64,000 nucleotides of DNA. It comes from Schizochytrium sp. TIO01. Taxonomy: Eukaryota > Sar > Bigyra > Thraustochytrida > Thraustochytriidae. The position numbers were made by a program, and so were the translations under genes. Positions within the stretch are counted from its first letter, which is position 1. Every line of letters begins with the position of its first letter. The notes under the pieces were generated by a model that had not been told where the DNA came from, did not search any database, and worked only from the letters and a program-made list of their open reading frames with translations. Location: assembly GCA_004764695.1 (NCBI GenBank), contig SMSO01000037.1, positions 1,793,747 through 1,857,746 on the forward strand, read 5' to 3'. Positions 1,228 to 62,423 of this stretch are shown one piece after another.

Positions 1228-2640
1228 GCAACTCTTGCACTGCGAATCGATCTCCAGCACAGTCGAGCTCTTCTTTTCGAGCATCGTTAGCATCTGCAAC
1301 TTCTTCAACTCAAAGGTCTCGTTTCGGACCTTTTAACATCTTGACAATCAGTCAGTGGTTATCCTTGAACTAGGACCGAGCGCCTCGCGTGGTCAGAACC
1401 ACTGCCTTGACCCTCGGGCCTTTAGATAGAGCCCACTTTGCTTTATAGATAATGACGTTGCTTCAAAGGTTGTGGGGCTTCGATGAATCTTTGAACAGAT
1501 CTCGGCCTGCTGCGACTTGCGACGAACCTTAAACTCAGACACACACAAACGTCCCGCTTTCATCACATTCAGACGCATATCCATCGTACTCGAAGATATT
1601 TTTGCATGGGTTTGTTTCCACGCCACAACCAACAAATTTGCCCTGGCGCTAGCGTACACGGACAAGATGGACTACAGCGCAATCATTCTCACGGCGGTGC
1701 TTCCCATGAAAACATCGCGTGGATCACAACCAAGGTAGTGCGTACGATCCTGTAATTTTTTAAAATTGTTGGTCTCAATTTTTTTTACCACCACCTTTCT
1801 TTTTACTATCTTGCGAATTTTCTCACTTGGTCCAAGGAATTTAGTTTGTTGTCCATTTTCCGGATACTTGGTTCGCATTGATTTTGTCGACCGCCACTAC
1901 AAGTATAATTAATTGATACTAAGCTGGAATAAGATGTACCACGGTTTTACTTGGTCTCACCAGATGTAGTTTGTGTCAGCTCATATTTCATTTTTCTTTT
2001 GCCCCAATCAAACGAATTACCCACAGTGCTGTTTCATTTTCCCCTTCGCACTGATATGAAATAAATACCCTCCTTGGTTCGCTCACTACGTCCCAAACAT
2101 AAAAGGAAAACCTTGTTCGATTCTGTGCTATTTGGGACCACTACCAGGCATTTTGGAAAGAAACGTTGACATTTCTTTGTTTAGTTTTGCTAGTTTCTTG
2201 GCATCATGACCTTTCGAATCTACTACACGGCTTTGGCTCAAATAACGGAAAGGAAACGACAAAGAACCTAAACACTACAAAGTCTCCGTGGCACGCTTCT
2301 CGTACATACATGACTGAGTAGCTCTTCGCTTTTTACTCTTTTTTTTTTTTTTCCTTTGTTCCTTCTCGCAAAATCTACGTCAAATCCTTCTTTGCATGCT
2401 TCTTCTTCCCAATCTGTTATGAAGGAGTGCTGCAGCACGCGTACGAACAAAATCTTGCGTAATGGCAACATCAACACGGGTGTACATTGCAGTGCAGAGT
2501 CGTATATTTCGATTTCGCTTTGATTAATTTTTTCTCAAACTGGATAGTACTTGGGTAGTCACTTTCCTAAGGTAGGTACCCATTTTCGTGAGAACGGTAG
2601 AACAGCCCACCAAAACTCCAACACGAAGGAACGCCACGCC
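1228..2640. other. Intergenic, GTP cyclohydrolase to FANCL
   Basis: About 1.4 kb with no gene I can support. It is AT-rich in its second half, with short T runs around 2339-2352. A minus-strand frame at 2268-2471 has a lysine-rich, vaguely protein-like translation (67 residues from an ATG at 2471) but no recognisable family. It should hold the 3' UTR of the first gene and the promoter of the second. Confidence 0.5.
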
Positions 2641-3975
2641 ATGGTGCTCGTGACCGTGCCTTCAGACGGAAGCCTGCGTGGTTCACTGCGCTCTCGAAAC
2701 GGCCGCGAATTCCTCGTACATATCACGGCGCCGCAAACGTTGAACTCCGAAGGCCATGACACGGACTTCGACGCAGCAGCATGCACCGACAAGAGGCGTA
2801 AAGTTGCGACAAACGGAGCAGCGAAAGCGCTCAACAAGCTTGGCCCACGACAACTCTTTGGGGACGCAGAACTACTTCAGCTCCTGCGGCCACACAGCGA
2901 TCTTGTTAAACTCAGACTTGAGCAAGCTGGCACCTCTGCAGAAATCCTCGAGAAGGATTTGCTTGAAATCCTTGAGCACGCAATACGTGATTGTGAGCAA
3001 AGCCATTTACTAAATGGAAAAGAACCCTCACCATCAAGAACAGCACAGACCATCGATAGAACAAGCTCGGCGCAATTGCAGTTTTGTAAACGCGTTGTTG
3101 AAGACATTGAAGCCTTAGGATGGGACCAGGTCATGCGCATCTCTGAAGACATGCGCAGCCTTGATCTTTTAGTCAAAGATGAAGCAGGCCGTGAGCATAC
3201 ATTACACGTCAACTTTCCCTCAAATTATCCACAGCAATCCCCCTCACTTTCGGCATCTGTGCCGGAAGCCTTTCAACAAGATGCAACCAGGGATACCTCT
3301 ATGCGAGACTCGCGAAATAACCTTACTCGATCAAATAACGTGCATCTTCCTGGGTTGCGTGGCCTTGTTGCTCAATTTCAAGATAAATTGCGATCCTTTC
3401 AAGGCGCGTGGGCTGAGTTGGATGATTTGGATGCCAACACATGGGTTCTTGATCCTGTCGAACCAAATTATAGTATCATGTATCGTCGCATCGCTTTAGC
3501 CAAGCACTGTTCAATGCAAGTGCGAATTTCAATTGAGGCGCCACGATCAGTTTGTGAGTGTCAGTTCATGGGCTCTGAGGCTGCTTTAGCTCCCTTTCGC
3601 AAGCGCTTCAATCGTAATTTGCGCTCTTGGAATCGGAGCGCAGGCGTGCGTTCGAATTTGCTGCGAGTGCTTGAGATCTCTGAGTTTCCGCAAAAGGACG
3701 CCAAGGAGATTGGTGAGCAGCAGGAATGTGGTGTTTGCTATTGTGTTCGCCTTCCTATTGAAGATCTTGAGGTTGATGCAGAAATTTCAACGCGCAACAA
3801 AAATGAGTCAATACTTCCTGACTGCATTTGTCCCAATCCCAAGTGTTCACGAGGTTTTCACCCAGCTTGCTTACGTGACTGGTTTCAGTCTCTGCCAACT
3901 ACACGCCACACATTTGACACCATGTTTGGCACATGCCCATATTGCTCGGGGCCTATTAGTGTTCTCACTGGCTAA
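2641..3975 (+). CDS. FANCL-like RING E3 ubiquitin ligase (Fanconi anaemia core)
   Basis: FANCL is the catalytic E3 of the Fanconi anaemia core complex and monoubiquitinates FANCD2/FANCI at DNA crosslinks. The 444-residue protein has the family order: an N-terminal beta-rich ELF-like segment (1-60), a helical region (70-120), a double-RWD substrate-binding region (about 145-350) with ALGWDQVMRISEDM, GREHTLHVNFPSNYP, DANTWVLDPVEPNYS and YRRIALAKHCSM, and a C-terminal RING/PHD-like domain (362-444). In the RING, CGVC, CICPNPKCSRGFHPAC and CPYC supply a full set of zinc ligands, and the tryptophan after the middle ligands (RDWFQSL) matches E2-binding members. The length is somewhat greater than the roughly 375 residues of animal FANCL because of inserts before each RWD. 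The open frame starts at a TTG at 2551; the first ATG is 2641. Confidence 0.93.
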   Translation: MVLVTVPSDGSLRGSLRSRNGREFLVHITAPQTLNSEGHDTDFDAAACTDKRRKVATNGAAKALNKLGPRQLFGDAELLQLLRPHSDLVKLRLEQAGTSAEILEKDLLEILEHAIRDCEQSHLLNGKEPSPSRTAQTIDRTSSAQLQFCKRVVEDIEALGWDQVMRISEDMRSLDLLVKDEAGREHTLHVNFPSNYPQQSPSLSASVPEAFQQDATRDTSMRDSRNNLTRSNNVHLPGLRGLVAQFQDKLRSFQGAWAELDDLDANTWVLDPVEPNYSIMYRRIALAKHCSMQVRISIEAPRSVCECQFMGSEAALAPFRKRFNRNLRSWNRSAGVRSNLLRVLEISEFPQKDAKEIGEQQECGVCYCVRLPIEDLEVDAEISTRNKNESILPDCICPNPKCSRGFHPACLRDWFQSLPTTRHTFDTMFGTCPYCSGPISVLTG

Positions 3976-11338: not shown

Positions 11339-13177
11339 ATGTCGGTGAAACCTGAACTTAGCAGGCATGCAATGCTTGTGGTGATTCTCCTGGCATGCTT
11401 GGCGGTGCCTGGATTTGCCTTTCTTGATGGTGTCGTGGATGCTGTCAAGACAACCATTGCTGGAGCTACTGGGCGTACTGCGTATGCACCCTCAAAACGT
11501 GCAGAGGTGGAGCACGCGGAGGATGTTGTGGTCGCAGATTTTAGCGCACCGCAGGGAAGCCTTCCTAAGGTGCGTCTTGGTTCCCGCGTCATCGATCTCG
11601 TTAACGCTCTGCACTTTGATGACCTCATGCAAGATACCCCGGACGAGATTCGCCCTCCTAGCGTGGTAGTCTTTTACGACAGCAACGATAATACATGCAT
11701 GGAAAAATACGATAGCTTAGGCTGGGACAATCTTGCTGAGTCCAAGCTTCCTGCTCGTGAGCGTCTCATGACTGCTCGTTACGATATGTATGCTGCACCG
11801 CGTCGTGCATGGTACAAGTTTATTCCTGAGATGGACCTTGCTAAACGTTTCAACGTGAAGCAATGCCCTGAAGTGGTTTTTGCACCACGCTCCTGCGATG
11901 GTCTTACTGAGTTTTGCCATCGTGAGACTGATGGAGATGGCATCCAGTACATGGGATGCGAAAACTTTAAGGAGTCCTGCGAGAATACCAAGATCTGGGA
12001 CGGCAAGGGCGACTTGAAGACATGGATCATGGACAATGTCGAGTCGGAGGGCGAGCCTGCTGTGAGCCGCTTCATGGGATCCATGGAGGCCCAAGGTGAG
12101 TGGATCCTCGGACGCGACCGCACTACCACCGACAATCAGATGCGTAACCTTTATCTTTCCCCTGCATTCCCAGCATTCACAAAGCGTGGTTTCAAGGCAC
12201 TTCCTATTCCGGATGAGCTTATGAAATGGCTTGATGGCTTTTATGAGCGTAATGAAAAGCACCGTCGCACGGAGTTTTGGGAAGCGGAGTCCACCCAGAT
12301 GGGCTTTCACGAGACCCCGACTTCGTTCTTGGATATGGATCGTGAGCGCTTTGAAAAGGAACGCATGGCCAACCTCTATCTTAAACCCCTTGTTGAAGAG
12401 TGGGCTGGTCTCCCTGAAGGCACTCTTGAACTTACTGCCTTTTACGGAATGCGTGAGTACCCGGATGAATCGATCCTCAAGAACCACGTGGATCGCATTG
12501 ACACCCATGTACTTTCTGTAACCATCTCTGTTCGTAAGCTTGACGAGGCTAAGTCTGCTGCTCACCCATGGCCTCTTGAGGTTGTTCAATGGTCTGGTGA
12601 TCATGTGCGCTACGAGCACCCTGGTGGTACCATGGTCCTTTACGAATCTTCCAAGCTTATGCACGGTCGCCCGTTCAAGAACAAGGGTGGTACCCATGTC
12701 GGTTGCTTTGCTCATTTTAAGCCAAAGACTATGCACAGCACGGACGCTAGCCGCTGGGAAGATATCGTCGCTACAGCCCGCTCTAACCAGCGCCGCAATT
12801 CACAGAACACTGCGTACAGATCGCGCCCGTCGGTTGAGCCCAACGATGTACACTTTTCCAATGTTGACTATGGTGAGGGCACTCGCTGGCGTCTCAAGAC
12901 TGAAGGTGAGAACGAGGTCCGCAATGACCAGGTACCCGTTACTTTTCATAACAAGCACGACAAGACCCTTGCTGTGTATTGGCAGGGCCATGATGGCGGT
13001 CCTGTTCACCAAGGTACGGTGGCTCCTGGTGCAACTTTTGACGTTGGTTCTTACCGTGGCCATCAATTCTTCTGGTCTGCTGTTCTTCCTGAGCATGAAG
13101 GTTCCCCGACGGCAATGCCCGGTGGTCGTATCACTGTGGAAAAGGGCCGTACGGTTTACGCTTACACCGCAAAGTAA
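11339..13177 (+). CDS. Prolyl-hydroxylase-like 2OG oxygenase fused to a VHL-beta-like domain (copy A)
   Basis: A 612-residue secretory-route protein with four parts. A hydrophobic signal/anchor lies at residues 11-29. A thioredoxin-like domain (about 80-235) has the cis-proline strand FNVKQCPEVVF but no CxxC. A 2-oxoglutarate/Fe(II) oxygenase domain (about 265-465) follows: ELTAFYGMREY, iron ligands His383 and Asp385 in NHVDRIDTHVLSV, and distal His442 in YESSKLMHGRPF, then GCFAHFKPK, a prolyl-4-hydroxylase-like layout. Last is a VHL-beta-like domain (about 532-611) with VPVTFHNKHDKTLAVYW and GSYRGHQFFW. Against human VHL, the pocket Trp, Ser and His are kept (Trp548, Ser571, His575), while the pocket Tyr is His557 and the second Trp is Phe577. 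Start ATG at 11339 in AAACCATGT context. A paralogue lies tail to tail 0.9 kb downstream. Hydroxylase-like chemistry is family knowledge; binding of its own product by the VHL-like part is inference. Confidence 0.85.
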   Translation: MSVKPELSRHAMLVVILLACLAVPGFAFLDGVVDAVKTTIAGATGRTAYAPSKRAEVEHAEDVVVADFSAPQGSLPKVRLGSRVIDLVNALHFDDLMQDTPDEIRPPSVVVFYDSNDNTCMEKYDSLGWDNLAESKLPARERLMTARYDMYAAPRRAWYKFIPEMDLAKRFNVKQCPEVVFAPRSCDGLTEFCHRETDGDGIQYMGCENFKESCENTKIWDGKGDLKTWIMDNVESEGEPAVSRFMGSMEAQGEWILGRDRTTTDNQMRNLYLSPAFPAFTKRGFKALPIPDELMKWLDGFYERNEKHRRTEFWEAESTQMGFHETPTSFLDMDRERFEKERMANLYLKPLVEEWAGLPEGTLELTAFYGMREYPDESILKNHVDRIDTHVLSVTISVRKLDEAKSAAHPWPLEVVQWSGDHVRYEHPGGTMVLYESSKLMHGRPFKNKGGTHVGCFAHFKPKTMHSTDASRWEDIVATARSNQRRNSQNTAYRSRPSVEPNDVHFSNVDYGEGTRWRLKTEGENEVRNDQVPVTFHNKHDKTLAVYWQGHDGGPVHQGTVAPGATFDVGSYRGHQFFWSAVLPEHEGSPTAMPGGRITVEKGRTVYAYTAK

Positions 13178-14111: not shown

Positions 14112-16115
14112 TTACTCCTGCTTCAGCTTTTCACGAACTTTGTCAGCAAACTGTGTTTGTGGCTTGCGATGGGTGCCGTCGCGTGTCAAAGAGTACTTCA
14201 CAACAGATCGGCCCATCTCCATCGAAAATGTTCCATCCGGAATCGGATCGGTGCTACCTGCTTCACAGAATGCAAACTGGTGATCACGGAAAGTGGTGAT
14301 TGTGGTTGCGGTTCCCCGGGCAAGAGTTCCTTGGTGAACCGAAGGACCATTCGGGTTAAGCCAGTAAAGATCAAGTGTACGGTCAGCTTCATTCTTGAAG
14401 ACCACCGAGAAGCCACCATTCGCATCAGCAGCGCCCTCATCCTCATCTGCCTCATCACCATCAGAGCTAAGGTGGGTCCACTTGGTTCCCTCGCCAAAAC
14501 TTTTGCTGGCGTACTCGATGGTCGAAGCAGGGGGTTCCACTGGGTCAGTTTGACGGAAGGTTCTGTGTCCTGTAAATGCAGATTGGTGAGCACGTGCAAC
14601 GCGTGCAATGTCGTCCCAGCGGCGCGTCATATCGGATCCTGCAGACTTCGGCTTGAAGTGCACAAAGGCGCCAAGATGGTCACCTCCGAGGTTGGGATAC
14701 GGCCGTCCATGAGGAAGCTTTGAGGACTCATAGAGCACCATGGTGCCAGCCGGGTGCTCGTAGCGGACATGGTCACCATTCCAGTCAATAACTTCAAGTG
14801 GCCAAGATGCGTTAGTGGGCCACTCACCCTTAGCAACGGTGATAGTTACCGAGAGAACGTGAGAGTCGATGCGATCAATGTGCGAGCGCAGCCAGTTATC
14901 GTGCTTGTAGTGGCGCACACCGTAGAATGCGGTGAGCTCAAGATCGCCCATCTGCGACCACTCCTCCACAATAGGCTTAATGAACTTATTCACCATGCGG
15001 TTGGCGTGAATTCTCTCACGGTCAAGGTCCGTGAACTCAGTCGGTGTCTCGTGAAAAGACATTTGCGTGGACTCAGCCTGCCAAAACTCCGTTCGTTTGT
15101 GGCTCTTGTTACGTTCCAAGAAACCAAGGAGCCACGTCATGAACTCTCCAGGGACGTCGGTAGCTTTGAATCCGCGAGGCGTGAACGCCGGAAAGGCCTG
15201 AGAGAGGTAGAGATTACGCATCATTGTGTTTGAGGTGGTAAACTCTCGGTCATGCATCCATTTTCCCTGCTCGCGGTAGGTACGGAGAAACTTGGAGAGT
15301 TTAGGACGACCCTCTGCAGCAACTTTGTCTTTAATCCAACTTGCAAGATCTCCAGTACCGTCCCATTTGACGGTGTTAGTGCACTGCTCAACAAAGTTCT
15401 CGCAGCCGATGAGCTCGATCGAGGGTGCCTCGGGGTCCATACCGCGACTGCACCAATCAGTCCACCCATTACAAGAACGGGGTACGAAAACAACTTCGGG
15501 GCACTGCTTGACATTAAAGCGTTTCGCAAGATCCATCTCAGGCGTAAACTTGTACCAGGCACGGCGGGGTGCAGCGTACATGTCGTACCGAGCTGTGAAG
15601 AGCATATCACGGCTTGGAAGCTTAGTCTCGGCGATGTTGTCCCAACGCAAAGCGTTGTACTTTTTCACGCACTCGCTGTCACGCGAGTTGTAAAAGACGA
15701 CCACTCCAGCTGGGCGAATGTCGTCTGGTGAGTCCTGAAGAATTGAATCAAAGTGAATTCCGTTCACAAGATCAGCAACACGGCCACCCATAGTCACGGA
15801 AGGAAGGTCCATGTCGCTGTAATCTGCAATCTCGAGGCCAGATGCATGAGGAGGCTTTGGTCTTTTGGATTCTGCAGCAGGGTTTTTCGCGGTACTCGCC
15901 TGTACGACCCCAGGGCTTGGGCCAAAGAAGAATGCCTTGACGTCATCCAGAGAGAATGCAGAAGTAGAAACCACCGCCAGTGCCAAAACTACGATGGCAA
16001 TCACAGTTGCAGGCGCGATGGACTTCTTAGCCTTGCCTTTATTGGCGCTCGCCATTGTGGCTGCAGACCGCGCCTTCGCCACCTCGGCAGTCGAAGGCTT
16101 ACTGTTCTTGGCCAT
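14112..16115 (-). CDS. Prolyl-hydroxylase-like 2OG oxygenase fused to a VHL-beta-like domain (copy B)
   Basis: A 667-residue paralogue of copy A, alignable over nearly its full length with clearly more than half of positions identical by eye in the core. The N-terminus differs: about 30 Lys/Ala/Ser-rich residues, then a long hydrophobic segment (33-54), suggesting a type II membrane anchor. The thioredoxin-like domain (about 110-265) again lacks CxxC. The oxygenase has His412, Asp414 and His469 (SHIDRIDSHVLSV, ESSKLPHGRPY). The VHL-like domain (about 568-645) keeps Trp585 and His612, but the pocket Ser position is Thr608 and the SYRGH core reads TFRDH, so it is the more diverged pocket. An acidic insert (about 551-565) precedes it and a basic 20-residue tail follows. 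The open frame starts at TTG (16199); the first ATG is at 16115. Confidence 0.85.
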   Translation of the reverse strand: MAKNSKPSTAEVAKARSAATMASANKGKAKKSIAPATVIAIVVLALAVVSTSAFSLDDVKAFFFGPSPGVVQASTAKNPAAESKRPKPPHASGLEIADYSDMDLPSVTMGGRVADLVNGIHFDSILQDSPDDIRPAGVVVFYNSRDSECVKKYNALRWDNIAETKLPSRDMLFTARYDMYAAPRRAWYKFTPEMDLAKRFNVKQCPEVVFVPRSCNGWTDWCSRGMDPEAPSIELIGCENFVEQCTNTVKWDGTGDLASWIKDKVAAEGRPKLSKFLRTYREQGKWMHDREFTTSNTMMRNLYLSQAFPAFTPRGFKATDVPGEFMTWLLGFLERNKSHKRTEFWQAESTQMSFHETPTEFTDLDRERIHANRMVNKFIKPIVEEWSQMGDLELTAFYGVRHYKHDNWLRSHIDRIDSHVLSVTITVAKGEWPTNASWPLEVIDWNGDHVRYEHPAGTMVLYESSKLPHGRPYPNLGGDHLGAFVHFKPKSAGSDMTRRWDDIARVARAHQSAFTGHRTFRQTDPVEPPASTIEYASKSFGEGTKWTHLSSDGDEADEDEGAADANGGFSVVFKNEADRTLDLYWLNPNGPSVHQGTLARGTATTITTFRDHQFAFCEAGSTDPIPDGTFSMEMGRSVVKYSLTRDGTHRKPQTQFADKVREKLKQE

Positions 16116-50160: not shown

Positions 50161-51717
50161 TCAAACCATGGGCAATATCAAGGTCCATGCCAGTGATGTC
50201 GAAGCACGTTTTCCAGGCGACAGTACCGACTTGATTGTTCTCCAGCCAACAGGAAGTGCTGAGTAACCTTCCATCCGTGAGACCTCTTCTACAAGCTGTG
50301 AGAGGTTATCATCTCTTGCAGCATAGTAGTGTGGGTCAACAATGAGCAGCTTACTCTCCGCCATAGGGCGGCCAAGAGCAGTGCGTGCCGTGCCCGCAAT
50401 GACAAGAGCAAGGTTAGCACCACAAGCAACTACTGGAGTGTTAGCACCAACCAAATGCTCCTCGATTTGTGTGAATGCATCTTCATAGTCCCCATGTGCC
50501 CTAATAAATCGACAATCTACATCATATCGATCACTCAAGATCCATGAAATTTCTTGCGACCCAATCCACTGCTTGCAAGGCGGTTGGAAGTTAGTATCCA
50601 TCACATTCATTTCTTTAAGACGCTTCTGAACTTCGATAACATTAGGCACTAGCTCTTGTGTAGCATCTGTTGCTTTAGAGGGAGATTCAACTACGCTATA
50701 TCCATTATAGTGGAAATAACTCAACATCATTTGTAAGCTTCGGTATGCACAACCCCATCCTCGATCATCAAGATTTTGCATTCCATAATGATAATAGTCA
50801 AATCTACCTCTTACAAGATGTATTTTAGATGCGTCCACTTGGTTAGGCTCTTTTGCCCGCAAATGTATATTTGATCTTGGCAGGGGCTCTTTTTCGGTGG
50901 CGCAAAACACGAAATTGTGTACGCGGGAAACAGAGCTTGGGAGTCGGGAGCTTGCCGGAAGACCGAGTTCGCGGCGAATCCTTGTGATTCTGGTAGGATC
51001 TCGACAACCTCGAATGTGAACAGGCAAGCCATCATTTATCACATGGACCTGAATGTCAGCAGCAATACCTGAACTCCGTGCTACTAGTAGTTCCTGGTCT
51101 GCCATTTCAAGAAGTCTAGTAAAAGCTTGAGCACAGGTCGTATCTTTAGGTACCAATGTGCAAACCTCGATGCGGTGGAAGTCAGTGCCGAAACTGCCAT
51201 TGTTAGGGGTCTTAGTGCAGCAAAGCTGTACTCCTCGAGCGGGCATAGATGCATCTGAAGGGAGCATATATGGGATGAGGCGCACAATCACTCTATTTTG
51301 AAATTGGAGGGAGTTTCGGCAAGCAGCAAAACTATTTCCAGTTGACAAGACTTTGTCTAGCTCTAAGCTCTCTACTAAGGATTGTGACAAGTTGATATCT
51401 ACGCCCACAGGTACAACTTTAGAAGATATCGAAGACCTGAACGCCACAACATTTTCCGAGATGGTTTCAAGTTCTCCAGAAATTCGTAATATGAAGTTGG
51501 CCACTAGAACAAACTTATCTAAGTTGTTAGCGCTCCCTTCGGGGAGCTCGTTTTGCAAAGTCCCGGTTGATCTTTCCACATAACTCGACACGCCGCCTCC
51601 GACAGGAGACTTCAATGTGCCTCCGCAAGGTGCTGTAAGTGCTTGCAGCTTTGGAATCGGTAACTCTGCAGACACTCTAGGACGATCGGACGCACCGAAA
51701 GTCCCCTTTATCGACAT
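50161..51717 (-). CDS. UFM1-specific protease 2-like cysteine peptidase
   Basis: Peptidase family C78, which matures the ubiquitin-like modifier UFM1 and removes it from targets such as ER-bound ribosomes. The 518-residue protein has a poorly conserved N-terminal half (1-290) and a C-terminal catalytic domain (about 300-518). Catalytic Cys323 lies in DDRGWGCAYRSLQ, preceded by the HYGMQNLD loop with the family tyrosine region; Asp461 and His463 lie in LLIVDPHYYA; KQWIGSQEISWIL is a further family signature. The long N-terminal half is typical of UFSP2 and distinguishes it from short UFSP1. The open frame begins at TTG (51759); ATG at 51717 is first. The last 30 residues run VGWRTIKSVLSPGKR to LILPMV, matching the family end loosely. 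Its presence implies a UFM1 pathway in this organism. Confidence 0.93.
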   Translation of the reverse strand: MSIKGTFGASDRPRVSAELPIPKLQALTAPCGGTLKSPVGGGVSSYVERSTGTLQNELPEGSANNLDKFVLVANFILRISGELETISENVVAFRSSISSKVVPVGVDINLSQSLVESLELDKVLSTGNSFAACRNSLQFQNRVIVRLIPYMLPSDASMPARGVQLCCTKTPNNGSFGTDFHRIEVCTLVPKDTTCAQAFTRLLEMADQELLVARSSGIAADIQVHVINDGLPVHIRGCRDPTRITRIRRELGLPASSRLPSSVSRVHNFVFCATEKEPLPRSNIHLRAKEPNQVDASKIHLVRGRFDYYHYGMQNLDDRGWGCAYRSLQMMLSYFHYNGYSVVESPSKATDATQELVPNVIEVQKRLKEMNVMDTNFQPPCKQWIGSQEISWILSDRYDVDCRFIRAHGDYEDAFTQIEEHLVGANTPVVACGANLALVIAGTARTALGRPMAESKLLIVDPHYYAARDDNLSQLVEEVSRMEGYSALPVGWRTIKSVLSPGKRASTSLAWTLILPMV

Positions 51718-54700
51718 GGTGGCTGCTCGGAGATAACGCGCGAAGGAGCAAGGAAACAAATATGATTAAGCAATGCTCAGTCGTACAGCACAGAATCAAG
51801 GAGCTAACCAAAAGCTCATGACAAGCCCTGATTAAGCTTTTCAACCTGTTGATTATCTTTCTTATTTCTTTTAGTTTTTTTTTTAGTTTTTTTATTTATT
51901 TATTTCCTTCTCTTAGGCTGGCCTGATCTGATTTGCTCATAGATCCTTTGTGGATGTTGAAATGGGGATGACATGGATTGTGATGAAACTTATGTATATT
52001 TGGAGAATTAAGTAAAAAGGGTTAGAGTTGTACTGTTTGCAACTTTGACAGCTTGTATTCATCATCAAGGCTTCACATCCGCAAACATTACTAGAGGTTC
52101 AAAACGACCCATTGTGGTACTCCTCTTTTAATGAATAGAGGGTGAATAATCCTCTTTGAAAACCATGGAGGTTAATTGGTGTGAACAAAACCGCCCCACT
52201 GAGTATTGTCTCACATTGTAAATGTGGTCTTCTTATCCAACTTCAGAGCAACAAAATATATTTGACCTTTCAGATATTCACTTTTGGGTCCTTACTTGAA
52301 TTTATGGTTCTTCTGTCCACAGTTTCTTTGCAAGACATTAAGTTTAGTGTAACTTAAATTAAAATCACCTAGGCTTTCGAACAGCATGCTATAATGTTGT
52401 GTAATGATACCGAGCAAGATAAACTTACTTATGGATGGTTTGACTTTCTGACAGAGGAAAGTAGAAAGACTGAGGTTGTGAAGAATAAGACGAATTTTAA
52501 TGCTATTAGCTTGTCGGTATTGGGCCTTTCATGAGTGTGCTCGTTCGTTAGCACTATTCTAATTGGAAACAAAGGAAGTGCCACAAAATTGAAAGGGAAA
52601 TTGATAACTACTAGATATGTTATTTTCTTTCATTTAGATCCATGCAAAAGTCTTTGACTACATGCTTATTCTTGCTGGTGACGAGGATTTCACCAATAAC
52701 AAAGACAACAACTAGACTCTATGCCTTGTACGAAGTCCCTTTTTAATAACTTGTACCGTACGATAGGAAAGACAAGTGGTTAGCGTGAAATGCCGTGTAC
52801 AATTAGTCATTTATTTTAAAAAGAAAATCGTTTTGCATTTTTAACTTTCCACTACAGTACGTGTCAAAATCTTCAGTTCCACCAGCGTTTGTATGATTAC
52901 AGCGAGATAAATCTTCATCAGAAGCATCCCGATCGGTTTGAGTAGTAACCTGACCTTGATTTAAAGAATAACAAACAGGTAACGGTGTTATTGTCAAGGT
53001 CATCCTTTCTCAATGATTAAAATAATATCTTGATTCAAAGGACTCAGCAACATTTATAAGAGCTCATACTAATTGTTCAAAATGATTCATTAAAATAGCA
53101 ATGTTTACTCGCATTGTCTCAAATATTTCTGTTCAGATTTATTTTAGCCAATACTCACGCAAACTACTCCCTGACTACACCAACATCACTTTTTGCCAGA
53201 CAATTAAAAACTAAGAAATTTAGTTATCATCGCATAATGTATCTATGGGGAATTAAAAAGCTTGAAGCCCATATCTATGCTCTTAACTACTATATTTTTA
53301 AAAAGTACTTTAAAATGATATATATATATATTTGTTTTTTTTTTTGTTTTTTTAAAAAGAGTTTTTATTTTATATGTATATAATCAAGTTCTAGTATCAT
53401 GATATTTAATTTTAATTAATATATATATTAAACATAAATGAAAACTATTATAAATCTGAGGAAAACACATAACACACACACACCTTATTAGGTCTTTAAG
53501 CCGAATCATCAGCATATAAATATGTTCAATATTATACTCGCGATGCTAAACTCAATCAGTAACGATCTTTGTAATGAATATAAATACATTTCAAATTATC
53601 CTTTATCAACCTTGTCCTCAATATTATGAACTAGGGTAGCTGCTAGTAGAAGCAAAGAGGCACATCTGAAAAAGCATCACCATAAATTCAGAACCATCTT
53701 CGTGCTGAAAGGGTGTATCTCATTTCCTCCATGCAGCTGCGCATTCAATTCTCAAAATTATGGCTTCAAGCGGTTTGTGATTGTCGTTTATGTAGTTCTA
53801 TCCATATATCCAAATATATTCATTCTATAGCGCAAGGAAACATTTTCGATTCTTTGTATTTAAAAAATGTTTTCCTTTCTCTCATTCGTTATTTGAGGTC
53901 ATACTTGACCTTTAAAATATGCACTCAAAATGACATACGAAAAGGCCAGTGTCCATGCAGATGCGTGGCTCTAGAGCTTGTTTCAAATTTATTGTATCTC
54001 CGCACCTGTAGTTAGCTCTTCACTCAACCTGGTTCCCGGGCCTTTTCACTCCGAAATCGCGGAGACAAGGCTGTTCGGTTCTAAAATAGACATGGACCCT
54101 TTTTCTTTTTCTTTTTTTACTTGAATAATAATAATAATATTACGAGCGAAGATTTGTCTTCGCTGTAGTCGCGCTGCTTCTGCTGAAGGGGAAACTGCCA
54201 TCGCTTGCGGCTTCTAACCCACCTGCGTGCACCGACGCCAGTAGAGAGGATTCTATATATGGGCTTCAAATAAATGCCTCGCAGACATTGTCTCTCACAC
54301 AGTGCCTCGCAGTTTTGGTATCAAAGGTGGAAGTAGGAAATGTTGGCGTTTTCTATCATTTCTTTAAAATTTAATGAAGCCTTGTGACCCCGCACTGATA
54401 TGGCGTACGCTGATCATAACTTTCCGTCTTTCCCGTTCGATCTTTCTGACAGAGCCTAAGTCAATCACGAAGGGTCGTTCCTCACGATGTGCGGGTCCTC
54501 TGGCCGCAGTTCTCAAGCAGTGCAGCGTGCTCTGGCGCTTGCGAAGCCGTACCGGAGTTGCAAGCCCACGGAGATTTACTTGTTTCATGGACGATCCAAA
54601 GAGAAGAAACGAACTCAGAACAGCGTAGACAACTCAAGAAAGCTTATGTATCATGCGCGATGCCCAGACCATCGGCGGCCCAATCCCAACAGCACTGGTG

Positions 54701-55547: not shown

Positions 55548-58500
55548 ATGTGGGGCGGTGGCGGCCTTGGTAGCGCGCTGGCCGGCATGGCGTCGACCCT
55601 GCGTCTCTCGGAGCTCACATCCTCAAACTCCTCGACCTCATCCTCGACTTCGACCCAGAACTCTGCAGTAGCTCAAACCTCTACGCAGATATCATCTGCG
55701 CAGTCCCAACCATCCCATGTTACAACCGCTAGTCTTCGCACCAGGCTTGAGGCGCTTGTTCGGAGGCCAAGATCTGGTCAAGGAAGATACTCTCTGCAAG
55801 AAAGCCCTTCTGCAAGCTCCTCGTCGAGCCCAAATTCTTCAGAGCAGCTGGGGCTTCAAGGGCGCAACAGCAGTAGCATCAGAAGAGGTAGAACTGTAGA
55901 ACAAGATATTGGAGAAGGCACTGGAAGTGGGTTTAAATATCTTGAAGATCATGTAAATGAAGGCCTCAGCGGAGATCTCGGAGAACTTGGCTCCAGAATG
56001 GTACTCGAGGAAGATACTTCGGTTGAGATGGCGCAAGATGCGCTCTTGTATGTATTAGAGCAGGCGTGGAACGAGTCAAGGCTAGACGTGGATGTGGACT
56101 GCATGACCAGAGCTCTGAAATTGTGCGAATGGACTGCCATGGGAGGTCAGGACCCAGCGAAAGAGACTGCAAGGTTGCGGGAGGAATTTGGTTCCTCGTG
56201 GCCCAGGTGCAACCGCGTCTGGCTGAGCAATCATGTTGCGTATAGGTGCAAGGATTGTGGAACTACAGAGAGTTCATGCATCTGCGTGGAGTGTTTTGAC
56301 CCGGCAGACCACGAAGGCCATGATTTTCGCATTTACAAATCCAATAGCGGAGGATGCTGCGATTGCGGAGATCCGAATGCATGGAGGCCAAGCGGCAATT
56401 GCAAAGCCCATCGCGTAGACCCCAATGCCCCCGTTACTGGTACCGACGCTCTCCCGCCCACTGTGCGCCGTGGCACTAGCCTTGTTGTTAGCGTTCTGGC
56501 TAGAGAACTGCTTCTTTGTATTTGTGATGTACTTGCAGCTATCTCAGCCCCAAGGGAGCCCTGGCGAAAAGCTGCCGATCATACTTGGCACACAAGTCCC
56601 AATCTTGTACTCTCCAGCGGCACCCACCTCCACAACCTCACAGACCACGGTACGCAAGGAATTCAACATTTTAGTACTACAAGGGACAGTCATGTGGAGA
56701 AAAGGCAGAAACTCTTTGAATTTATTATTCGCTTTCTTACACAGCTTTGCGAACTCGGGCCTCCACTTCGTAGACTCATAGCTGAGGAACTTGTTACACC
56801 ATATAGCGCGCATCGCCCAGCCTCGGCGTATGCTTCCGAGAGCTTTGCCCAACATAGTTGTATTGAAGCGTTTATCCGCTTTGGCATTTTTCTTGAGTCT
56901 GATGTGCAAAAAGTTCTTGGTATCCTCGTTTTGCGCCTCCTCATTGATGATGACTTCAAAACGCATTATACAGATACATTTGTCACTAATTATGGCTACC
57001 TTATTACCAATTATCTACATGGCTCTAAAGTTGTCAGAGGAAGTATCAATGAATACCTGGACCGCATTCTTTGCCAGCTTTGCAACTCCACCGAACAGGT
57101 TCGCCACCTAGTCACAGGCCAGCCAACCGACATGTTAGGTATCACAGTTGACGCCATTCTCCAGCTAGGAAAAAGGGCGGCTGTGCCACGGCGTTTCGAC
57201 GTTGTCAGCTTGCCAAGGAATCGCAACTTGCCCAGCGATGGGGGGGACTCGGCAGCAGCGGCTGCAGCCGCAGCCTTGCGTGGACATCCAGAACCAAGGT
57301 CCTCTTCTCGACGGGCTCGCACTTTAGGGCCTGACGGAGGCTTCCCGCCCATGAGTAATTGCAACTTGGGCCATAACAACTCAAATGTCATGGTGGATGT
57401 GGCATCAGAAAATGTCGAAACACGCCTCTTTTACCGACTTATTATGGATTTACGTCTCCTACTTGTTCACGACACTGTCACCATTCATGGTATTATGCAA
57501 CGTCCTGAAATCCTCCAACAGGCTCTTACCATGTTTTCTATGCTACAAGAAATAAATCCCCAGACTCGCAAGGTCGATGTGCACTTAGAGTTCGAGAATC
57601 GTGCAACGTGGGAGGGTGCATTTTTGTTGGAAATGGAAATGGTTTGTGCCTTCTTTCGCCTGATTGATGGATTCAAGCAAGTGATGCGGGACAATCCAGG
57701 TGCCAAGCCCACGGCACTCAATGCCTTGCGCTCTACCACAAGGGCGCTTGTTCAGTGGTTAGAGAGTCAGGGCCTCACTGCACGACGATTTATTACCATG
57801 AGTACAGCGCATATTAAAGGTGGTGACCCCTTCTCGGGTGTCGTCGCGAGCCTCACGCACCTTGTCTCGTCAGGGAGCTACACGACTTCAATCCATATCC
57901 CGTTGCACCGTTTTTGGGCGGGCATTTTTCATGCAGCTATTGAAGAAACGGAGCCACGCACAACTTTGCGCAAGGTTCTCCAAGAGGGTCAAGGACATGC
58001 TCCTCCCACACCATCCGGTCTAATGGGCCGTCGTGACATGCTAGACATATTGATTGCACAATCTATCGACGCCCGAGAGCATCACGAAGGCGAAGATAGT
58101 AACTCCAGCATTACCCCTGCTGGCTTTGCTTGTCTAGTTGCAGAACACCCTCTCCGCGTCTTTTCAAAGCTTGCGCAAGTACGCTCGAGAGCGTGGATAC
58201 GTAATGGTGCCCTCGTTGAAGTGGAACCGCAGCATTATCTTTCTCGGTCGTGGTCTTGGTTTGCACACGACCTTGACCTTTTCACACTACAGTACTCCGC
58301 CTCCGTCATGGATGGCGACTCTTTCATCCGTTTCGTTGCCAAACGCTTTGAAGTCGACGAGGTCCTGAGCTATGCATGGACCCCAACGTCTGTGTTGGAG
58401 TCCAGTGGTACACTTAACGACTCTGCCCGTCGCAAGAGTCGCCGCCAGCGTCGCGCCGAGTCTGAGAAACTTGATGAGGATCAGCTTGCAGTGATGTGTG

Positions 58501-61500
58501 AGAGTATGCTTCATCTTGTAAGCGTTCTTGTCCATGACCGTACCCGTCTCGGCGAACGACCCAAAGAAACCCTACACAAACAGGTCATCCATGCTCTTGC
58601 TTCAAGTCCAGGAAGTAAACGCACATTCAGTGCAATTGAAGCATGTATTCCCCTACGTGTCCTCGAAGAGGGAGGGCGTCTGGAGGATGTTCTCGCCGAG
58701 GTAGCAGACTTCAATCCTCCTAGCGCTAAGGACACGGAAGGTACATACTCACTCAAAGAGTCCTATTGGACTAGCGACCTAGACTTGTACTATTCGCACT
58801 TCACAACAGAACAGCGACAGGTCATGGAAGAGAACTTCGACCTTTTTCATAAGAGAAAGCGCAAGCGCCGTGATATTAGCTCTAGCCTTGACAGTATTAC
58901 TGATGACGAAATCAGTCCGCGGAGCTCAGGAGATCGCTCACAGTCCATGTCCTGCACCACCGCATCTGCATCTGCATATGTTTGTCGTCTTATGGCATTG
59001 CCGCTAGATGCGCCCATTTACAAGTCTTTTTCCCATGTTCCGTTCAATCTCTTATTCTGCGCGGAACTTCATGGAACCATCTTCCGAGTTTTACATGCTT
59101 GTGTACGGGAGGAAGTTTCTGATGTTGTACTTGCCCGGCCAAGCATTCTTCTTGAAGCACTGAGTCTCCTCTATCAGGGCATCCTTCTAAGTACTGATCT
59201 TGATATGGTTGCCGAATATGAACGCGAACTTGTAGGCCATTTTCAAGATGCGTCAAATGACTCAAATGGTAAATCTTACGTTGGGCACAAACCTCGATCT
59301 AGAAGCTGTGACGGAACTATTGCCTGGACGTGGCCCAACACCGCCCTTCAGCGTTGCATGTCGGCCCCTACTGACTTGCGCGCCATGTCTATGTCTATCA
59401 ACCATCGCATTGACCACATCCAACACCGTGTTCGATTACCTTACCACAACCCGATCCTCAATGCCTGTGAGCTCGTGCCACTTGCTGAGAAACGAACCAA
59501 ATCTCCCAGTCGACAGGATGTCGATGGAGAGAACTCGCCGATACTAGCTCCTCGTGTTGCAAGTGATTCCTGTGTTGGTTCGCCTCCAACTCTCAGTGGG
59601 TCTCTCTCCGAGTGGTCTTGGCCTTCTCCATCTGGGCCTCTTGCTGCACCTTCTTCAGTGTCTTCATCGCCCTCTCTGTCACCATCTTCTCCGCCTTCAT
59701 CCTCCTCGATCCCCGTACCAGGGTCTCACACCGGAAGTTTAGGCGGAGCCATTGCTACAACACGACGGGCTAATAACACTACACAGACTTATGGGACACC
59801 TCAACTTGGTCCATCGGCTGTTGAATCCTTTTGTGATAAGTCAACCTTGGGATATCTCCCCGAACCCTTATGTAGCCTTGCACCTCGTGCTCGCGAGGAA
59901 CAAAGTGTTGGTGTCTCCATCTTTATGCTGCTTTTGCAACTCGTACAGAGTCAGGGCCGATGGGGTCGAGACGTACATGAATTAGCAGTGCTATTAGTAC
60001 AGGAGATCACTGAGCACATGCAAAAACTTGCACCTGGCTTACAAACGTTAAGTGACCATTTCATGAGCTCCAATACCTCTAATTCAACGGACCTAGCCAT
60101 GAACCGGAGAGCAACGAGCCCACAAGTTCCGACACCGCCGCGATCTGCTGTATTCGCGGCAGCCGTTGCTGCAAATGCGCTTAATCGTGCTAGAACTGCT
60201 CCATCTGCATGTACTACTAGCCCCAGCAAAGCCGAACCAGCTCAATCCCTCGAGTCTGCAAGCCCTGGCTTGAGTCTTACTGTTGGGCTACCTGTGAATG
60301 GAGTCTTGTCATCTCCTGACACATCAGACGCAGGAAGTACAAACACTGGCGCAGATGACTTAAGCAGTAATTCTTCTGCTACCAAAAAGCGCACAAAGAA
60401 GAAGAAGAAGAAATCATCCACATCGCAAAATGGACTAGACCAGAATGATCTTGCCTCCTTGTCACCTACGTTAAACGCCTCGGCTGCCAGGCAAGCTCGT
60501 ATTATGGCTAAATTCAAGAAACGCCAAGCAGCATTTCTCTCAAGCTCTGCTGGTTTGTCGACGCCCGACGAAGTAGAGAACACTTCACAAATTGAGGGTC
60601 AGCATGTGGAATGCGCTCTCTGTCGTGAACCTGCATCATTGAGTCGTACGATGGGAATTGTAGCTTACTCGGGCGTTGGTTCCGTGTCTGAAGCTCTCAA
60701 ACAAGAATATTTATTTGGAACCCCCATCCTTCAGAAGCCTGTTGGCGGTCCTCGCCACTCATGTGATACATCCTTAGTTCGTGCTTGTGGACACCATGTA
60801 CATTTTGACTGCCTAGAAACATACAAACAATCTCTCACAACCACGAACGATGTGATCGATGTAGAAGCAGACGAGTTTCGTTGCCCTATTTGCCGAAGCT
60901 TGGCAAACAACCTTTTGCCAATGTTTTATAAGGAAGACAGTGTTCCTTCCGCACTTGTAGAGAGATATCTTCAACGGATTCTTCGTGCAGCTGAACCTTC
61001 ATATGCAAGGGATGCAAAAAGGCTTGGACAGCTATTTCAGGAAAATTGTCTCCTAGCGATCTGCGCTGTGAATGATTCTGGCGCAAGTAACACCTTGCAG
61101 TCCTACGAGACCTTGGCTCATTTACTTCGATCTACCTACGAAGCTGTTCAACGTGTACAGGACGATGCAGAGCGACTGCAGGTGATTGAGGTTATCGAAG
61201 CTCAGATGGAGCGATTTGGCCTTGATGAAAACACTCCCTCGCCTTTTGAGCTATTTGGAAGTTGGCTCCTCCTTGGTGGTAAGGGACCCAAAATGGACTT
61301 TGCCAAGGAAACTCTAGCAGCAGCCATGGGACAAGTGATTGTTGCTCTTGCTGTAAACGCAGATGGAACATCTTTAGGTCAAGCCCTAAATGAACACGCC
61401 CATGAAACTGAGATGGTAAACAGTTCTTCCTCAACTTTGTTTACGATGATTAAAATGGCTGAGCAGACACTTGTCAAAGCTCAAATGTTGGGTAAAGCAT

Positions 61501-62423
61501 CCTCGTTTAAGCTTAAGATGCCAAGTGGATTTCCCAGCTTGGCCGCTCGAGCAGGAAAGCTTGGAGATATGCCAGTGGAAAAGGTAGTAGGAAGGTTGTG
61601 TGTTTCATTGATTCAGTCATTTATTATATCAATGGCTGCAGTCGAGTACCAGGGTCAGAGCTCCACTGGGCGCCGTTCTTGGCGATATGTGCATGAGGAC
61701 ATTCAAGCTGCCGAAGACGGTATTTTTGATTTAGAGAATGCTGAACTTGGCCTTACTGCGGAGATGATTCAAGAAAAGGTACAGCTGATTATCCAAGGAA
61801 TTATTTGTCCTCGGGGGGGCTTCTCTGATATGCATGAAGATAAAGATGAAATGATGGGAAGCAGTAACGAAAGAGGAAAGCAAGAAATTATTCAGCACCT
61901 TGCAGAGCCATCTCTGATATGCTCCGGTCGTCTCGAGCTTCCTGGGCTCCTGCAACTTCCTCAATTATACACAGACTTGTACCTGCGCTTCTGTGAAGGT
62001 GCAACCTCCCAGAATTTGCCAGTTTGTGAAACGTGCTCGCAGCCCCTTAGCACGGATACTGCAATGATTTGTCTTCATTGTGGAAAAACTCTTTGCTTAA
62101 GCATGACTTGTCAGCCGGGTGGTATCCAAAGACGTTTGACACGCCATGCACTCAATTGTACTGGCGTGGTGTGCAAAACAGTATGTGCTTTCCTCCCTGC
62201 GTATACCAGTTCTGCTTACGTTGTCATTAATAATACGCGAATGATGGAATTCGGTTCCGTCTATCTAGACTCGCACGGAGAGGCAGACCCCCTTTTGCGT
62301 CGGGGTAAACCACTGTATGTTTCTGATGCAAGAATGCAACAACTACGACGCCTGGTCTATGGTCTTGGGTTCACAACTGAAATGGTTGGAGTTCGCCGCA
62401 TATCACACTTTCTCGTAGAATAA
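55548..62423 (+). CDS. UBR1/UBR2/PRT6-type N-recognin E3 ubiquitin ligase
   Basis: A 2291-residue RING E3 of the N-degron pathway in one uninterrupted frame. A Ser/Thr-rich N-terminus (1-120) leads to the UBR zinc box (about 221-290): CNRVWLSNHVAYRCKDCG, then CICVECFDPADHEGHDF and GGCCDCGDPNAW, the fold that binds basic (type 1) N-terminal residues. A helical body follows (VLARELLLCICDVLAAI; TNYGYLITNYLHGSKVVRG). No ClpS-like type 2 domain is recognisable between the UBR box and this body, as in plant PRT6. A long Ser/Pro/Thr-rich insert spans about 1370-1680. The RING-H2 (about 1689-1780) runs from CALC to FRCPICR and has a roughly 50-residue insertion after the first Cys pair. The C-terminal autoinhibitory region (about 2160-2291) has CETCSQPL, MICLHCGKTLC, and the terminal LLRRGKPLYVS and RLVYGLGF. 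ATG at 55548 is first. Confidence 0.95.
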   Translation: MWGGGGLGSALAGMASTLRLSELTSSNSSTSSSTSTQNSAVAQTSTQISSAQSQPSHVTTASLRTRLEALVRRPRSGQGRYSLQESPSASSSSSPNSSEQLGLQGRNSSSIRRGRTVEQDIGEGTGSGFKYLEDHVNEGLSGDLGELGSRMVLEEDTSVEMAQDALLYVLEQAWNESRLDVDVDCMTRALKLCEWTAMGGQDPAKETARLREEFGSSWPRCNRVWLSNHVAYRCKDCGTTESSCICVECFDPADHEGHDFRIYKSNSGGCCDCGDPNAWRPSGNCKAHRVDPNAPVTGTDALPPTVRRGTSLVVSVLARELLLCICDVLAAISAPREPWRKAADHTWHTSPNLVLSSGTHLHNLTDHGTQGIQHFSTTRDSHVEKRQKLFEFIIRFLTQLCELGPPLRRLIAEELVTPYSAHRPASAYASESFAQHSCIEAFIRFGIFLESDVQKVLGILVLRLLIDDDFKTHYTDTFVTNYGYLITNYLHGSKVVRGSINEYLDRILCQLCNSTEQVRHLVTGQPTDMLGITVDAILQLGKRAAVPRRFDVVSLPRNRNLPSDGGDSAAAAAAAALRGHPEPRSSSRRARTLGPDGGFPPMSNCNLGHNNSNVMVDVASENVETRLFYRLIMDLRLLLVHDTVTIHGIMQRPEILQQALTMFSMLQEINPQTRKVDVHLEFENRATWEGAFLLEMEMVCAFFRLIDGFKQVMRDNPGAKPTALNALRSTTRALVQWLESQGLTARRFITMSTAHIKGGDPFSGVVASLTHLVSSGSYTTSIHIPLHRFWAGIFHAAIEETEPRTTLRKVLQEGQGHAPPTPSGLMGRRDMLDILIAQSIDAREHHEGEDSNSSITPAGFACLVAEHPLRVFSKLAQVRSRAWIRNGALVEVEPQHYLSRSWSWFAHDLDLFTLQYSASVMDGDSFIRFVAKRFEVDEVLSYAWTPTSVLESSGTLNDSARRKSRRQRRAESEKLDEDQLAVMCESMLHLVSVLVHDRTRLGERPKETLHKQVIHALASSPGSKRTFSAIEACIPLRVLEEGGRLEDVLAEVADFNPPSAKDTEGTYSLKESYWTSDLDLYYSHFTTEQRQVMEENFDLFHKRKRKRRDISSSLDSITDDEISPRSSGDRSQSMSCTTASASAYVCRLMALPLDAPIYKSFSHVPFNLLFCAELHGTIFRVLHACVREEVSDVVLARPSILLEALSLLYQGILLSTDLDMVAEYERELVGHFQDASNDSNGKSYVGHKPRSRSCDGTIAWTWPNTALQRCMSAPTDLRAMSMSINHRIDHIQHRVRLPYHNPILNACELVPLAEKRTKSPSRQDVDGENSPILAPRVASDSCVGSPPTLSGSLSEWSWPSPSGPLAAPSSVSSSPSLSPSSPPSSSSIPVPGSHTGSLGGAIATTRRANNTTQTYGTPQLGPSAVESFCDKSTLGYLPEPLCSLAPRAREEQSVGVSIFMLLLQLVQSQGRWGRDVHELAVLLVQEITEHMQKLAPGLQTLSDHFMSSNTSNSTDLAMNRRATSPQVPTPPRSAVFAAAVAANALNRARTAPSACTTSPSKAEPAQSLESASPGLSLTVGLPVNGVLSSPDTSDAGSTNTGADDLSSNSSATKKRTKKKKKKSSTSQNGLDQNDLASLSPTLNASAARQARIMAKFKKRQAAFLSSSAGLSTPDEVENTSQIEGQHVECALCREPASLSRTMGIVAYSGVGSVSEALKQEYLFGTPILQKPVGGPRHSCDTSLVRACGHHVHFDCLETYKQSLTTTNDVIDVEADEFRCPICRSLANNLLPMFYKEDSVPSALVERYLQRILRAAEPSYARDAKRLGQLFQENCLLAICAVNDSGASNTLQSYETLAHLLRSTYEAVQRVQDDAERLQVIEVIEAQMERFGLDENTPSPFELFGSWLLLGGKGPKMDFAKETLAAAMGQVIVALAVNADGTSLGQALNEHAHETEMVNSSSSTLFTMIKMAEQTLVKAQMLGKASSFKLKMPSGFPSLAARAGKLGDMPVEKVVGRLCVSLIQSFIISMAAVEYQGQSSTGRRSWRYVHEDIQAAEDGIFDLENAELGLTAEMIQEKVQLIIQGIICPRGGFSDMHEDKDEMMGSSNERGKQEIIQHLAEPSLICSGRLELPGLLQLPQLYTDLYLRFCEGATSQNLPVCETCSQPLSTDTAMICLHCGKTLCLSMTCQPGGIQRRLTRHALNCTGVVCKTVCAFLPAYTSSAYVVINNTRMMEFGSVYLDSHGEADPLLRRGKPLYVSDARMQQLRRLVYGLGFTTEMVGVRRISHFLVE

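Follow-up and report, generated by a model that had tools for sequence, protein, structure and literature searches.

What is a VHL-like domain doing at the end of an oxygenase? This question is raised by gene A in a 64,000-nucleotide stretch of the thraustochytrid Schizochytrium sp. TIO01 (contig SMSO01000037.1, positions 1,793,747 to 1,857,746; hereafter the window, whose coordinates we use throughout). VHL is the hydroxyproline reader in animal oxygen sensing, and the first-pass annotation of this DNA proposed that gene A joins such a reader to the hydroxylase that writes the mark. The answer depends on whether the domain is truly VHL beta, on what else in this genome carries it and on what its binding pocket has kept.

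Gene A (11339..13177, + strand) is one continuous frame of 612 amino acids (aa), with both its ATG start and its stop codon present, which encodes a 2-oxoglutarate (2OG) oxygenase with an N-terminal hydrophobic stretch and a C-terminal VHL beta-like domain (residues 526-612, 12914..13174, +). When A was compared with the PDB using phmmer, VHL ranked first with an expectation value (E) of 0.14, and a Pfam scan of A returned nothing up to E 10. Its paralogue B, on which the first-pass annotation is silent and which lies convergently ~0.9 kb downstream (14112..16115, -; 667 aa from the first ATG at 16115, the frame extending to 16199 from a TTG), is 51% identical to A over 616 alignment columns, and the VHL beta domain of B (14202..14450, -) exceeds the Pfam cut-off (PF01847; 27.3 bits against 21, E 3.7e-6). 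As a check of the VHL label, this hidden Markov model succeeded with B (27.3 bits) and failed with A, and the label held at the level of profiles: a profile of the seven proteins described below matched VHL in the PDB at E 1.2e-4 to 2.8e-4, VHL making up 24 of its 26 matches, and hhalign against 74 bacterial VHL domains gave a probability of 97.6, when 50 column shuffles reached 1.6 at most. Structure prediction and structure comparison of the C-terminal domain of A, a check that the first-pass annotation had proposed, also gave a VHL beta match, the predicted fold (whose input alignment combined A and B with 50 bacterial VHL domains) agreeing with the VHL beta sandwich. The Pfam score of B, the seven-member profile, hhalign and the predicted fold thus bear out a VHL-like beta domain in A and indicate that the resemblance is not chance. 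That A instead ends in another beta-sandwich family that came to look like VHL by convergence, with its SYRGH string an accident, is very improbable: the profile, profile-profile, Pfam and fold results all point to VHL and contradict convergence, which we rejected. SYRGH as such is not conserved; what recurs in all seven proteins is the looser [ST][YF]xxHxF.

Is A a singular case? A genome search with A found two further loci, L004 (protein C, E 8e-19) and L005 (protein D, E 0.168, via its VHL-like stretch). In C, a VHL-like domain stands ahead of a 2OG region of the A type, and in D a canonical prolyl 4-hydroxylase (P4H) domain (PF13640 at 1e-13; P4H structure 2jig at 1e-23) is followed by a VHL-like domain. 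PF13640 was found at 17 loci of the genome, 16 of them above the cut-off, and a four-domain profile, run over the open reading frames (ORFs) of fetched loci with 1.5 kb of flank on each side, beyond which farther exons would escape, added L015 (4e-16), L011 (3e-5) and L016 (6e-5). The VHL-like domain is therefore carried by four of the 17 PF13640 loci (D, L015, L011 and L016) as well as by A, B and C, making seven proteins, with the oxygenase placed before the VHL-like domain in A, B, D and L015 and behind it in C, L011 and L016. PF13640 is above the cut-off in all four of D, L015, L011 and L016, indicating a P4H-type catalytic domain; the comparison with the PDB covered D. Since five such proteins besides A and B are encoded in this genome, four of them with canonical P4H domains, the VHL module appears to be an accessory domain common to a set of hydroxylases.

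Used as single-sequence queries against the genome, the domain of L015 recovered its own locus and D and, at E 0.249, L011, that of B recovered B, A, L015 and D (L015 and D at E ~0.2), and that of C recovered itself only. The Pfam VHL model gave four candidates over the 64 Mb genome, B being the sole one above the cut-off; among the other fusions, L015 scored 13.7 bits, under the cut-off, and A, C, D, L011 and L016 gave no match. Two of these candidates, L023 and L024, were excluded from the count of fusions. The second of them (C36:3305698-3305886) has an 18-bit match in a 119-residue frame (WINTDG...HFWMV) and might be an exon of a further VHL-like gene. Among plasmid records, 16 match D, none across more than 80% of it, and in the 15 of these 16 matches that were listed the alignment ends by D residue 477, so that the C-terminal domain of D is not covered.

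All seven fusions begin with a hydrophobic N-terminal stretch (means of 1.49-2.70, the lowest being that of C). In A, this presumptive signal or anchor covers residues 11-29 (11369..11425, +), where the Kyte-Doolittle 19-residue mean reaches 2.70, as compared with values of at most 0.31 past residue 130, and the hydrophobic N-terminus read by the first-pass annotation is thereby borne out. Because of these N-termini we infer a secretory location; A and B would probably be 2OG/Fe(II) oxygenases that are either secreted or anchored in a membrane, with a true VHL beta C-terminal module. Two further features were seen: L011 also has a ShK domain, barely above the Pfam cut-off, and C (L004:757-2244, on C34) has an acidic tail with a terminal HREL that we take to be reminiscent of an endoplasmic reticulum-retrieval signal.

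The fusion of a VHL beta domain with a 2OG oxygenase, as claimed for A, thus stands in seven proteins, four of which have a canonical P4H; that A's own 2OG region hydroxylates proline is conjectural. For A or its 2OG region (residues 275-470, 12161..12748, +; in B, by alignment, 14610..15197, -), no Pfam family was found up to E 10, and a profile of A, B and C found no P4H in the PDB up to E 10. The catalytic residues lie where they had first been placed, as does the SYRGH string (571-575): H383-x-D385 (12485..12493, +), the presumed iron ligands, and H442-x-R444 (12662..12670, +), the presumed third ligand and a conserved basic residue, are invariant in six of six rows (A, B, C and three viral relatives), forming the HxD...H iron triad. 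Relatives of this domain were found at 11 loci on viral contigs, the best segment being 27% identical, and one of these relatives, L134, has a cyanophage homologue that carries the annotation 2OG-Fe(II) oxygenase. The whole protein A also matches PHROG 2954 (phrog_2954, E 3.3e-5), whose label, ferrochelatase, is probably wrong considering the annotation of that homologue; the viral relatives L133 and L134 match the same family. By motif and kinship, A is then a 2OG oxygenase, and by analogy with those fusions that have a P4H domain it would act on proline. We also considered and rejected a viral origin: viral loci share the 2OG relatives, and VHL-like profiles run on the ORFs of the 11 loci gave one match, at E 0.94, in each of eight and none up to E 1 in the other three. 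Viral contigs searched for close relatives of A, for the bacterial VHL pattern and for the P4H of D and L015 yielded no locus.

If the domain is VHL beta, has it kept the means to hold hydroxyproline? According to a review (PMC9528729), hydroxyproline in VHL is ringed by W88, Y98, H110, S111, H115 and W117, and its hydroxyl is bonded by S111 and H115. A aligns with VHL without gaps, which places W548 at VHL W88, Q558 at Y98, S571 at S111, H575 at H115 and F577 at W117 (12980..13069, +), so that the three positions out of five that the first-pass annotation had counted as kept (88, 111 and 115) are confirmed. Over the seven domains, position 88 is Trp, 111 is Ser or Thr and 115 is His in every one (7/7 each); position 117 is Phe in 7/7. 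Position 98 is mostly Gln, in five of seven domains in one alignment and four of seven in another, the count varying because a gap shifts L011. The complete W88 Y98 S111 H115 W117 pocket was consequently found in no member (Y98 0/7, W117 0/7). Among 77 columns, three are invariant and all three are pocket columns, for which the chance is 3e-4 to 1e-3 depending on the number of columns counted, treating columns as independent and the seven proteins as equally related.

These residues bear on the strongest form of the first proposal, a true writer-reader whose domain would bind the hydroxyproline made by the attached hydroxylase and so promote processive or clustered hydroxylation. The positions that contact the hydroxyl in VHL (S/T111 and H115; PMC9528729) are kept in all seven, and four fusions have canonical P4H domains; against this, Y98 is lost, W117 has become Phe and bacterial peptidases have the same pocket, and we consider this form rather unlikely. 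What endures of the original reading of A is the fusion, the hydrophobic N-terminus, the lack of an alpha domain and positions 88, 111 and 115; conjectural are hydroxylation of proline by A, binding of hydroxyproline by the domain and the thioredoxin-like part. A quite different outcome, in which the beta domain would serve a VHL-type E3 ligase and hydroxylated proteins would be tagged for degradation, is suggested by the beta domain alone and is extremely improbable. The chain of A stops at residue 612 right behind the beta domain, leaving no room for an alpha/SOCS domain, as the first-pass annotation had noted, and the hydrophobic N-terminus suggests the secretory route. We set the E3 ligase role aside since A has no alpha domain; the VHL-like hydroxylases probably work outside any cullin E3 ligase.

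Bacterial proteins offer a wider view of the partners of this domain. A search pattern run on GTDB genomes gave 89 stretches, 80 of them listed as loci and 79 matching in frame, most in records of Planctomycetes or Verrucomicrobia type, going by title; L051 and L101 were dropped as chance matches, and 74 domains were left once short and duplicate segments had been removed. At two positions left free in the pattern, these domains keep W88 in 72/74 and Y98 in 74/74. Pfam reads one of the proteins, L089, as VHL + DPPIV_N + Peptidase_S9. A further profile (A3) matched 10 of 10 genomes picked from among those where the pattern had located a VHL domain, the weakest best match being E 0.0045, and 34 of 294 genomes in the phylum of G002, with 37 matches listed, 30 of them with a locus. 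Those 30 loci and L119 provided 31 ORFs, among which Pfam found DPPIV_N in 20, 18 of these with Peptidase_S9 too. An HExxH motif is present in eight of the 31: L151 is above a Pfam metallopeptidase cut-off, L144, L153, L157 and L169 match weakly, and L119, L148 and L168 do not match. Pfam identifies L167 as a sulfatase and L163 as an acetylesterase; L171, which had no Pfam scan, is identical to L163 at 525 of 575 positions (91%). No 2OG-VHL fusion was seen among the 31 ORFs, nor, with frames judged by eye, in Pseudomonadota, where 4/398 genomes match and the VHL-like domains sit in frames of ~260-350 residues. In the phylum of L101, 0/395 genomes match, an empty answer of little weight. A tree of 48 domains was poorly resolved, with nine of 45 inner branches starred and long branches meeting, and was not used for descent. 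One genome bin titled Klebsiella pneumoniae (L044) has a VHL-domain frame like those of Verrucomicrobia records and is perhaps mislabelled.

The pocket varies with the partner in this set. Position 88 is Trp and position 111 Ser or Thr in 31/31 ORFs, and His115 is kept in all 28 domains linked to DPPIV or HExxH partners and replaced by Ala in L163, L171 and L167, a distribution that fits a peptide-binding pocket. Four HExxH-type domains (L144, L119, L153 and L168) have Asn98 and Phe117, like the hydroxylase-linked set; their pocket residues read W-N-T-H-F, an amide at 98 being common to most hydroxylase-linked domains. This diversity of partners (DPPIV/S9 peptidases, HExxH proteins, a sulfatase, acetylesterases and the short Pseudomonadota frames) favours another explanation, namely that the domain is a generic accessory beta domain of secreted enzymes, serving stability, dimerisation or general docking with no preference for hydroxyproline, as it may do in bacteria, and that domain shuffling placed it on hydroxylases. 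The loss of Y98 and a reported fusion of pVHL to SELENOM in Aureococcus (PMC7539508) speak in the same direction. Single-sequence searches in this genome, however, match 2OG oxygenases only, and the invariant columns are the pocket columns; we regard the generic domain as a possibility on the doubtful side.

The reading that we prefer, and hold to be evenly balanced between right and wrong, is that the VHL beta domain is an accessory module on hydroxylases that binds a proline or hydroxyproline stretch of the protein being modified. The VHL-type pocket would bind the proline- or hydroxyproline-bearing stretch, and the bound module would keep the enzyme on repeated sites or hold its product, a role that may parallel that of the peptide-substrate-binding domain of collagen prolyl 4-hydroxylase. 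Several observations weigh against it. Judged on A alone, which by itself falls below significance, the VHL assignment would be unproven, and the fold model includes the 50 bacterial domains in its alignment; A's own 2OG region, as said, matches no P4H. The domains of L011 and L016 rest on their profile scores (with E 0.249 in addition for L011), L023 and L024, two of the four Pfam VHL candidates, lie in short frames that are not 2OG proteins, and VHL-like domains on non-oxygenase proteins may have been overlooked since the profile covered fetched loci only. Tyr98, which in VHL forms a hydrogen bond with the hydroxyproline carbonyl, is lost in 7/7, and this loss, like the peptidases with the same pocket, argues against specificity for hydroxyproline. 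The full pocket is also kept in bacterial DPPIV/S9-linked VHL domains, for which we know of no hydroxyproline ligand, so that the pocket may have been conserved for a different ligand or for folding. Finally, the three His-to-Ala cases may be a single event, since they cluster in the tree and two are identical at 525 of 575 positions.

More broadly, we tentatively propose that VHL beta is an ancient proline- or hydroxyproline-peptide-binding module of secreted enzymes that predates animal oxygen sensing, with at least seven 2OG oxygenases here serving as one-chain secretory writer-readers that carry the domain on either side, and with bacterial domains joined to prolyl-type peptidases. Hydroxylases bearing VHL domains would allow a direct test of whether the VHL fold binds (hydroxy)proline wherever it is present, they raise the question of whether the animal oxygen sensor took over a peptide-binding domain that had earlier served in the secretory route or in bacteria, and they would give protein engineers natural enzymes with hydroxylase and binder in one chain.

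Elsewhere in A, residues 67-244 (11537..12070, +) are 64% identical to B and had been labelled thioredoxin-like by the first-pass annotation, a label that was not confirmed: no thioredoxin was among the PDB or Pfam matches, the PDB giving a single match (E 1.1), to an unrelated protein, and the predicted local distance difference test score (pLDDT) of the predicted model is ~23-38 there. A full-length model of A from a two-row alignment had a mean pLDDT of 32 and was discarded. Antisense to gene A runs a 339-codon frame (11717-12736, -), which is probably a shadow frame cast by the coding strand. The window also holds genes of ubiquitin-pathway type by Pfam, encoding a FANCL-like protein (2551-3975, +), a Peptidase family C78 member (50161-51759, -) and a 2291-aa UBR-box protein (55548-62423, +).

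How do these proteins compare with known systems? Bacterial VHL-DPPIV/S9 peptidases of Planctomycetota, Verrucomicrobiota and others likewise use VHL beta as an accessory module of a peptide-acting enzyme and share the pocket positions, whereas their partner is a peptidase and they keep Y98 and W117; a bacterial VHL-domain protein is on record (PMC9002001). The Aureococcus SELENOM-pVHL protein (PMC7539508) likewise comes from a microbial eukaryote and joins VHL beta to a second protein, with a selenoprotein in the place of the oxygenase. No P4H-VHL fusion was seen among the matches listed from the open-licence literature, itself available in part, and one could sit unremarked in public eukaryotic proteomes. 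With the beta domain of the VHL tumour suppressor (PF01847), A shares the predicted beta-sandwich and equally spaced W88, S/T111 and H115; it differs in having no alpha/SOCS domain, in the replacement of Y98 (mostly by Gln) and of W117 by Phe, and in sharing its chain with an oxygenase that follows a hydrophobic N-terminus. The catalytic domain of D, with HxD...H...K by inspection, resembles the prolyl 4-hydroxylase of PDB 2jig, a Chlamydomonas enzyme (E 1e-23), a match limited to the oxygenase part of D, the 2OG domain of A, B and C being more distant, with Arg at H+2. If the proposed mechanism is right, the fusions would resemble collagen prolyl 4-hydroxylase in combining a P4H with a separate substrate-binding module, the peptide-substrate-binding domain of the collagen enzyme being helical, not VHL-like.
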